Assembly (NCBI RefSeq): GCF_014349155.1
Contig: NZ_JACSIT010000149.1
Coordinates: 1 to 64,000 of the forward strand
Length of the DNA stretch: 64,000 nt
Source of the DNA: Neolewinella lacunae
Lineage (GTDB): Bacteria; Bacteroidota; Bacteroidia; Chitinophagales; Saprospiraceae
Direction of reading: 5' to 3'
Under the pieces are notes generated by a model that saw only the letters and a program-made list of their open reading frames with translations, had not been told where the DNA came from and did no database searches. Positions 45,224 through 49,507 of the stretch are shown here, one piece after another (within the stretch, counting starts at the first letter, position 1; every line of letters starts with the position of its first letter). The position numbers were made by a program, and so were the translations under genes.

Positions 45224-45982
45224 ATGCGTACTTTTTTCCTCTTATCCCTCCTGGTTTTGCTCTTCGCTACTTGCGGCAAAAAGACCACGGGTGGCGCCGA
45301 TGGCCGGGATGGCCTGACCACCACCAATAAAGCCGCCCGGGTCATCAAAGGCCTCGAAGACGGGGCTTTCAGCACCCAATACCTGGAAGGGAAAGCCCGC
45401 GTGGAGGTCAAGAGCCGCGACCTCAACATCGGCGGCACGGCAGTTATTCGGCTGGAAAAAGACCGCGCCATCTGGATGAGCGTGAAAAAATTTGGCTTCG
45501 AGGGAGCGCGCGCGCTGATTCGGCCCGACTCCTTTTTCGTGGTCAATCGCCTCAACGGGGATTACACGGCCGAGCCACTCAGTTACCTGGAGCAGAAGTA
45601 TAAAATCCCGGCCCGCTTCGACCTTTTGCAGGAAATCGTGCTGGGCAACGCCGTATTCTTTTCCCGCGATCTGACCCTGGCGGCCGAAGGCGAGCAGTAC
45701 CGCCTGACGGGCAAAGACACCCGCTTCGCAACGGAACACCTGGTGGATGGCCGAGGCTTTCGCCTGCTGGAAATGCACCTCACGGAGCTGGGGCAGAACC
45801 GGAAACTCTCCATCCAGAACGCCGGCTTTCAGGCCGTTGCCGCGCCCGGGGGGCAGAGCGACTTCGCCCACGAACGCACCGTGGTGATTGATGCTGCCGC
45901 TACGGGCCGGGCCGAGCTGGACCTCACGTTCACCAGCCTCGAATTCACCGGGCCGCTGGCCATGCCTTTCACGCGGAAGTAA
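45224..45982 (+). CDS. DUF4292 lipoprotein
   Basis: A 252-aa lipoprotein with signal residues 1-16 and lipobox FATC (Cys17). The mature part has the LolB/LppX-like beta pattern of DUF4292 (YLEGKARVEVKSRDLNIGGTAVIRLEKDRAIWMSVKKFGFEGARALIRPDSFFVVNR). By similarity of fold it may bind lipids or lipoproteins in the periplasm. It follows the TPR gene and is convergent with ileS, whose stop is 15 bp away. Confidence 0.87.
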   Translation: MRTFFLLSLLVLLFATCGKKTTGGADGRDGLTTTNKAARVIKGLEDGAFSTQYLEGKARVEVKSRDLNIGGTAVIRLEKDRAIWMSVKKFGFEGARALIRPDSFFVVNRLNGDYTAEPLSYLEQKYKIPARFDLLQEIVLGNAVFFSRDLTLAAEGEQYRLTGKDTRFATEHLVDGRGFRLLEMHLTELGQNRKLSIQNAGFQAVAAPGGQSDFAHERTVVIDAAATGRAELDLTFTSLEFTGPLAMPFTRK

Positions 45983-49374: not shown

Positions 49375-49412
49375 AAAAAAGCTCCGGCGGAAACGGGTCC
49401 GTCGGAGCTTTT
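49375..49412 (-). terminator. Intrinsic terminator in the ileS leader
   Basis: On the minus strand, GCTCCGACGG (49408-49399) pairs with CCGCCGGAGC (49390-49381) with one mismatch around an 8-nt loop, flanked by AAAA and followed by six T residues. It lies between the leader-peptide stop and the ileS ATG, 48 bp before the latter, as expected of an attenuator. Confidence 0.8.
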
Positions 49413-49437
49413 GGGCTGTGGAACTACAGCAGCATAC

Positions 49438-49494
49438 CTACGGACGCGGAGCGAGCGCAATAATTATGCCGTCAATAATTCGTGGTGCAGCCAT
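49438..49494 (-). CDS. Isoleucine-rich leader peptide of ileS
   Basis: An 18-codon ORF, MAAPRIIDGIIIALAPRP, with five Ile codons (ATT ATT, then ATA ATT ATT), including the rare ATA. It starts 5 nt after a TACCTTTG promoter box and ends at TAG, 26 nt before the terminator stem. This is the arrangement of amino-acid attenuators such as those of ilv or pheST operons. The end of the ORF (GTCCGT) is complementary to ACGGAC in the 5' arm of the terminator, so a ribosome stalled at the Ile codons could leave an antiterminator free to form. The gene is inferred, not recognised from a family. Confidence 0.7.
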   Translation of the reverse strand: MAAPRIIDGIIIALAPRP

Positions 49495-49499
49495 GGTGG

Positions 49500-49507
49500 C
49501 AAAGGTA
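49500..49507 (-). promoter_or_regulatory. TACCTTTG box of the ileS leader transcript
   Basis: A perfect -7 box followed by CCACC and the leader-peptide ATG, so the attenuator transcript is probably leaderless. Confidence 0.65.

Follow-up and report, generated by a model that had tools for sequence, protein, structure and literature searches.

The isoleucyl-tRNA synthetase gene (ileS) of Neolewinella lacunae is very probably controlled by a ribosome-mediated transcription attenuator that measures charged tRNA-Ile. The locus lies on the minus strand of the window, here the whole stretch of 64,000 nucleotides analysed (contig NZ_JACSIT010000149.1, positions 1 to 64,000), and has a short ORF with cognate codons, an intrinsic terminator, an antiterminator that excludes this terminator, an opposing 1:2 helix and control codons placed as in an attenuator. 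From these parts, their recurrence, their covariation and their geometry, all read from the sequences, we infer the transcription start, the translation of the ORF, the termination and the response to isoleucine.

In the proposed mechanism, transcription would start at or beside the leader AUG. When Ile-tRNA is ample, the ribosome would reach the stop codon and cover strand 2, upon which the terminator (3:4) would form and most transcripts would end before ileS. When it is scarce, the ribosome would stall on the Ile codons and cover strand 1, while strand 2, starting about 11 nt downstream, would stay available to strand 3; the 2:3 pairing would then pre-empt the terminator, and ileS would be transcribed. 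Without translation, the 1:2 helix could hold strand 2 in its loop, with the terminator left free.

Parts of the leader at the ileS locus

The sequence-only reading had proposed a promoter, an 18-codon ORF with five Ile codons, an intrinsic terminator and ileS in that order, and all of them are present on the minus strand, the promoter as a TAnnTTTG box (Table 1). The complementarity it had noticed between the end of the ORF (GTCCGT) and the 5' arm of the terminator (ACGGAC) is real and slightly longer, as GTCCGT-A-GG of strand 2 faces CC-G-ACGGAC of strand 3 in eight pairs with one mismatch. The ORF downstream of ileS (45224-45982) is convergent, and the other matches to ileS in the same genome are to a distant relative only (24-28% identity).

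Table 1. Features of the predicted ileS attenuator in the window.
Feature	Positions	Strand	Remarks
-7 promoter box P1, TACCTTTG	49507-49500	-	exact TAnnTTTG; gap of 5 nt to the leader ATG
Leader ORF, MAAPRIIDGIIIALAPRP	49494-49438	-	18 codons, stop TAG; five Ile codons; from the sequence reading and Ile-rich ORFs at the same place in relatives
Control codons, ATT ATT GAC GGC ATA ATT ATT	49479-49459	-	five Ile; ATC absent
Strand 1, CGGCATA	49471-49465	-	partner 49436-49430; from fold and comparison
Strand 2, GTCCGTAGG	49445-49437	-	end of the ORF; putative 5' strand of the antiterminator
Strand 1 partner, TATGCTG	49436-49430	-	directly 3' of strand 2
Strand 3, CCGACGGAC	49405-49397	-	within the 5' arm of the terminator; putative 3' strand of the antiterminator
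Intrinsic terminator (3:4), predicted	stem 49412-49377, T-run to 49375	-	-20.9 kcal/mol; 3:4 covaries
ileS, isoleucyl-tRNA synthetase	ATG 49327, end 45998	-	intact; gene under the proposed control

The predicted fold of the leader, made up of the 1:2 helix and the terminator, has an energy of -47.4 kcal/mol; shuffled sequences average -32.3 (sd 3.5), and none of 200 is as good. A plain consensus scan of the window, made for sigma-70 hexamers and for stems that are uninterrupted and have a loop of 3-8, listed neither the leader promoter nor the leader terminator; the terminator call in the window rests on folding and conservation. It is hardly credible that a T-box, or another RNA binding tRNA-Ile directly, lies here instead. 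T-boxes have been proposed before ileS in Actinobacteria, where the accessible part of the report (PMC1262725) describes the same gene and the same signal, tRNA-Ile; however, they differ from the present leader by direct tRNA binding, probable translational control and the lack of a leader peptide. Against such an element, the families of Rfam 15, T-box included, gave zero matches at the gathering score over the whole window (the look for a specifier loop being limited to Rfam), and an ORF with repeated Ile codons is kept.

The Ile codons of the leaders avoid ATC, the favoured codon. In the 16 Neolewinella leaders that passed the rule described below, there are 50 ATT, 16 ATA and 11 ATC, with the leaders of L007 and L009 read from an inner ATG, whereas the ileS genes of the same genomes have 129 ATT, 13 ATA and 791 ATC among 933 Ile codons. 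In 15 of these 16 leaders, the second Ile cluster begins with ATA. The avoidance of ATC could make sensing sharper, or it could be a consequence of the 1:2 helix.

These codons would also suit a leader that senses some other stalling, such as nascent-peptide arrest, a general slow-down of ribosomes or the lack of a minor tRNA reading ATA, and an E. coli toxin-antitoxin operon with an antibiotic-sensing upstream ORF, as far as its available description goes (PMC12121999), offers a parallel. This is improbable, since the controlled gene is ileS and the codon choice may follow from the 1:2 helix. Conservation of the leader peptides is limited to the Ile clusters and to the final codons, where the ORF overlaps with strand 2, and this argues against peptide arrest.

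Distribution of the leader among relatives

The loci of ileS were collected from a scan of named genomes (best 80) and from overlapping sets of 21 genus, 80 family, 119 order and 80 class genomes, and ten duplicate loci were removed before counting. The relatives labelled Saprospiraceae here presumably belong to this family. The genus is called Neolewinella because five ileS upstream regions of the genus set were identical to those of Neolewinella or Lewinella records. A fixed rule was applied: the ORF starts with ATG, has 8-30 codons, of which at least four and at least 20% are Ile, and lies within 400 nt of ileS, and the hairpin of an intrinsic terminator follows it by no more than 100 nt.

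The sequence-only reading had proposed a look for an Ile-rich ORF plus terminator in related genomes, and by this rule both occur jointly before ileS in 48 of 97 Saprospiraceae upstream regions (L112, with only 21 nt of upstream sequence, being counted as without leader here and in the tree and linkage counts, and L004/L084, with zero upstream sequence, being outside the 97). Among the other loci, 2 of 90 passed, and six of these 90 also carry the name Saprospiraceae (L011-L015 and L027), none with a leader by the rule. The two that passed (L044 and L049) were judged to be frame artefacts in the end of an upstream gene and were left out of the helix tests. With other residues in place of Ile, the same rule was passed by 6 of the 97 Saprospiraceae loci for Ser and by at most one for any other residue. 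Four loci missed the rule narrowly (L086, L098, L114 and L122) and were counted as present in the tree only, while L086 and L098 were also included in alignment A3. An Ile-rich ORF, even with no terminator demanded, was absent from all 28 readable class-level ileS loci.

In Neolewinella, the plan is found in 18 of 19 genomes with a readable upstream region, 16 by the rule and two just below it (L086 and L098), and the leader is lost at L096. Of two more genomes of the genus, one is cut off before ileS and the other lacks a full ileS. The peptides outside Neolewinella differ, yet keep their Ile runs, often as IIISIII. On a tree of 84 ileS proteins, 33 of them with the leader and 51 without, no fewer than 11 changes explain the trait; shuffled labels require 26.3, and none of 500 shuffles is as low. 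The leader is clustered in Saprospiraceae and patchy, with several gains or losses read from this comparison.

The linkage of terminator and Ile codons was examined at the Saprospiraceae loci not called by the rule, since a terminator conserved without Ile codons would speak against the attenuator. A strong terminator (-14 kcal/mol or better) was found at 6 of these 49 loci, and five of the six are Ile-rich: three are Ile leaders narrowly under the rule (L086, L098 and L122), one is an Ile leader with a GTG start (L167) and one has an Ile-rich frame whose start is unclear (L182). The sixth (L151), from genus g57, has only an ORF with 3 Ile, and four genomes of this genus (L404, L402, L406 and L407) keep the terminator and antiterminator with 3 Ile in a 20-codon ORF. 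By these sequences, genus g57 is the sole clear departure from the linkage. Its leader has decayed to MKYPGQNIIKQKKIPKQQSV or close variants.

A covariance model (R1), built from 19 loci outside Neolewinella and giving rough E-values, matched 111 of 298 family genomes and 54 of 112 genera. The model gave zero matches in the six Neolewinella genomes listed, so the family figure is a lower bound. Across the phylum, 3 of 395 genomes matched weakly (E 7.9e-5 to 7.7e-4), and ileS was absent from the matched stretches. Of the matches, one is a terminator after another gene (G402:C3), and one has no clear leader (G495).

For comparison, the upstream regions of valS, leuS and metG were taken from nine related genomes, and those of thrS, serS, proS, glyS, pheS and ilvD from six, the latter with the first ATG of the open frame as start. 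The genes labelled valS, leuS, metG, thrS, serS, proS and glyS were assigned by their Pfam family, the length of the frame and known features of the sequences. A leader for the own amino acid with a terminator was absent before valS (8 loci), leuS (8) and metG (4) in the nine genomes; at one metG locus (L216), a Met-rich ORF ends at the T-run of a hairpin and not before the hairpin. No cognate leader was found before thrS, proS, glyS and pheS in the six genomes, the region of one pheS (L298) being effectively uncovered by a frame that runs far upstream. At one of six serS loci (L278, G081), two Ser-rich ORFs are accompanied by hairpins that are weak (-9.1 and -9.0 kcal/mol); they are probably due to chance, because the other five loci show nothing alike. 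The rule is also passed at the comparison genes by a few ORFs in which some unrelated residue is abundant. Before ilvD, a branched-chain leader ORF was found in four of six genomes (L308, L309, L306 and L310). These include the genome of N. lacunae itself (L308, G000:C99), with the leader MYGLPLVVVLLVLVVILITPRRKAA and a terminator; the leader was found by the rule also in G008 and G033, and a similar ORF was seen by eye in G074, while it was absent in G081 and G010.

Alternative helices and order of folding

The strands of the alternative helices fit their own partners better than those of other loci. Over the 48 loci, the mean energy of 2:3 is -16.6 kcal/mol with own and -12.1 with swapped partners, and that of 1:2 is -14.2 against -10.4, with 0 of 10000 permutations as good in both cases, while the unexpected pair 1:3 has no difference between own and swapped partners. 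Base composition accounts for part of this difference, because a reversed-arm control also has an excess (-11.8 against -10.4 kcal/mol, 0 of 10000). When the partners are shuffled instead of swapped, mean z values of -2.5 (2:3), -1.6 (1:2) and -0.5 (control) are obtained. In Neolewinella alone, the excess is not significant for 2:3 (1875 of 10000 permutations as good) and is retained for 1:2 (0 of 10000).

The covariation of the terminator and antiterminator stems, which had been named as a check on the first reading, was found for both outside Neolewinella. In an alignment of 32 loci outside the genus, 208 of 237 cells of 2:3 are paired (185.9 in shuffles, maximum 194) and 22 are compensatory (6.6 in shuffles, maximum 14; 0 of 1000 as high), while the terminator 3:4 has 390 of 407 cells paired and 51 compensatory, as counts with no shuffle control on this stem. 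Within Neolewinella (18 leaders), 1:2 is paired in 76.9% of cells and 3:4 in 98.3%, and the two together have 11 compensatory cells against 3.6 in shuffles (0 of 500). The helix 2:3 is paired in 93.8% of cells there with one compensatory cell, and because its strands are almost invariant in the genus, covariation lends it no support inside Neolewinella.

Strand 3 is common to 2:3 and 3:4, which makes these two helices mutually exclusive. In the window, 1:2 shares no bases with 2:3, and strand 2 sits inside the loop of 1:2, so that both together would need a pseudoknot.

The geometry agrees with the claim that stalling at the Ile codons could favour an antiterminator. Strand 2 starts 6-16 nt past the last Ile codon in 43 of the 48 loci (median 11). 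A ribosome was simulated on the last Ile codon while strand 4 is still to be made, and strand 3 then pairs upstream with at least 6 bp in 48 of 48 loci; with the ribosome placed at the stop codon instead, this is so in 25 of 48, and without a ribosome in 24 of 48. For the partial transcript of the window, the fold is -20.9 kcal/mol when stalled and -2.9 with the ribosome at the stop. The terminator is the more stable fold of the full-length leader in 46 of 48 loci even with the ribosome stalled, and the switch must therefore be kinetic. Since strand 3 pairs upstream in half of the loci without translation (the 24 of 48 above), the untranslated state is not clear-cut across loci.

Promoters, related systems and inserted genes

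In all 16 Neolewinella leaders passing the rule, TAnnTTTG lies 4-5 nt before the ATG (the longer gap of L007 and L009, read from an inner ATG, being an artefact), and the exact box is absent at L086 and L098. In Flavobacterium psychrophilum, the box lies at -12 to -5 according to the available text (PMC9723704), which would place the start of the Neolewinella message at or one base before the AUG. Thus, the leaderless mRNA that had been suggested from the first sequence is plausible in this genus, where it is predicted from the gap in 16 of 16 leaders, and does not extend to all relatives. Outside Neolewinella, an exact box lies within 60 nt upstream in 20 of 32 leaders, the remaining 12 being without it, and its gap to the ATG is 16-25 nt in 13 leaders, 5-8 nt in six and 41 nt in one, so that 13 of these 20 are not leaderless. 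Leaderless messages are a minority in the phylum, with 5.5% in F. psychrophilum (PMC9723704) and about 3.7% of 5' UTRs under 10 nt in Bacteroides (PMC7366714), as given in the accessible parts of both papers.

In total, 36 of the 48 leaders have their own promoter box. A second TAnnTTTG box lies between the terminator and ileS in 32 of the 48 loci (e.g., L005, L113 and L170), namely in 9 of 16 Neolewinella and 23 of 32 others, where shuffling expects 0.4 and 2.1; an exact match is absent at the window's own locus. Such a box would often allow ileS to be transcribed past the attenuator. Such a box is also present within 90 nt of ileS at 38 of the 49 uncalled Saprospiraceae loci. From these sequences, the attenuator looks like an added module before a basal promoter, the latter lost in some Neolewinella.

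The second box bears on two further explanations. The terminator might only end the upstream transcript, with the Ile-rich ORF due to chance and the promoter of ileS further down, which would suit the second box after the terminator in two thirds of the leader loci and the boxes close to ileS at the uncalled ones; this is very unlikely, as Ile recurs and no other residue does, the leader and terminator occur jointly, two alternative helices covary and the leader has its own promoter box at most loci. Alternatively, the terminated leader RNA or its peptide could act in trans, with cis control of ileS minor owing to the second promoter, as in the proposed precedent of rnTrpL/peTrpL of Sinorhizobium (PMC7298713, from its accessible text). 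This is also unlikely, though somewhat less so, because compensatory change keeps the alternative helices, for which a trans-acting RNA would have no need, and the peptides vary outside the Ile codons.

Among the closest known systems are the classical leader-peptide attenuators of trp, his, ilv, leu and pheST in Proteobacteria. With these, the ileS leader shares the ORF with cognate codons, the 1:2, 2:3 and 3:4 helices, a strand 2 just beyond the control codons and the intrinsic terminator, the likeness being one of general plan, whereas here the gene is ileS, the host a bacteroidote, the promoters are of the TAnnTTTG type and the Neolewinella leader is predicted to be leaderless.

The suggestion that leader-peptide attenuation of ileS is undescribed in Bacteroidota agrees with the literature matches listed, which hold no such description and mostly leave subscription journals uncovered. 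In a paper on leader genes that names Bacteroidetes, ileS has zero occurrences (PMC4833913). In the same phylum, the available text on F. psychrophilum (PMC9723704) reports strong clues that leader-peptide attenuators precede operons of amino-acid biosynthesis, and it describes structured 5' UTRs at genes of synthetases; however, ileS is not named in that text. A small reading frame before ileS is known in Caulobacter crescentus as leader CDS CCNA_03934 (PMC4117421), but the accessible part of that paper uses it only as the negative control of an over-expression assay and does not give the anatomy of an attenuator. Short ORFs that open a leaderless mRNA and carry regulatory codons occur as mycobacterial polycysteine ORFs (by a title cited in PMC13236596) and as trpL of Sinorhizobium meliloti (PMC7298713, accessible text), although in other phyla and for other amino acids.

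Additional genes were found between the leader and ileS. Of 88 stretches examined, 80 have a visible ileS start and 8 do not; the start lies within 300 nt after the leader in 71 of the 80 and further in nine, of which two have a long N-terminal extension of ileS, one has a spacer without a sense ORF and six have genes. Altogether, in 14 of the 111 matched genomes, the space from the leader to ileS or the contig end holds at least one gene or a second leader (loci L347, L348, L349, L352, L355, L356, L357, L360, L363, L373, L387, L408, L412 and L413), a count in which the contig end hides the next gene in at least G034, G324 and G356. By Pfam, the inserts include SIR2 (G370), 23S_rRNA_IVP (G392, with the leader further upstream, behind the insert), PIN (G400), Endonuclease_5 (Endonuclease V) with an IS200-like transposase (G348), Fic in frame with ileS (G493), Abi_C (G023) and Uma2 (G065), as well as a nucleotidyltransferase with HepT-like (G384) and DUF433 with DUF5615 (G474), the contig ending before ileS in the last two. 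Uma2, DUF433 and DUF5615 are found with two leaders in G417, and Fic lies between two leaders in G075; the ORFs of G460 and G490 match no Pfam family, and G317 has two leaders with an antisense ORF between them. We take DUF433/DUF5615 to be a toxin-antitoxin pair. The leader copies are 98% identical over 221 nt (G075) and 108 nt (G317) and 92-94% identical over shorter pieces (G417).

Some frames at these loci are continuous with ileS. Neither a Fic/DOC ORF (L412) nor a 247-residue ORF lacking any Pfam match (L387) has a stop before ileS, with which both are in frame, and at two loci (L381 and L395), ileS has a lysine-rich N-terminal extension of roughly 110-120 residues.

The inserts raise the suggestion that the leader is a preferred insertion site for such genes. 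As a tentative extension, which we hold to be possible and not probable, the ileS attenuator could be a portable starvation switch and a landing site, where toxin-antitoxin-like, Fic, SIR2, Uma2 and abortive-infection genes insert between the terminator and ileS, sometimes with a second promoter-leader-terminator unit, share a transcript with the essential synthetase gene and are released when the charging of tRNA-Ile falls. The E. coli TopAI-YjhQ operon, in the available part of its report (PMC12121999), also has a stalling-sensitive ORF before toxin-antitoxin genes, comparable to the loci with inserts, but its ORF senses ribosome-targeting antibiotics and is no amino-acid attenuator shared with a synthetase gene.

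The ileS leader would represent full classical attenuation, with helices backed by comparison, on an aminoacyl-tRNA synthetase gene and in a phylum where such control has been suggested but, in the literature matches listed, not worked out. The leader points to attenuation being possible on leaderless mRNAs, in bacteria where Shine-Dalgarno sites are little used, and the family offers natural variants in which the leader is lost, decayed or duplicated, with or without a second promoter. The inserted genes make the capture of an amino-acid attenuator by toxin-antitoxin or defence genes testable; if such capture holds true, starvation, including depletion caused by phages, would license the inserted genes together with ileS.
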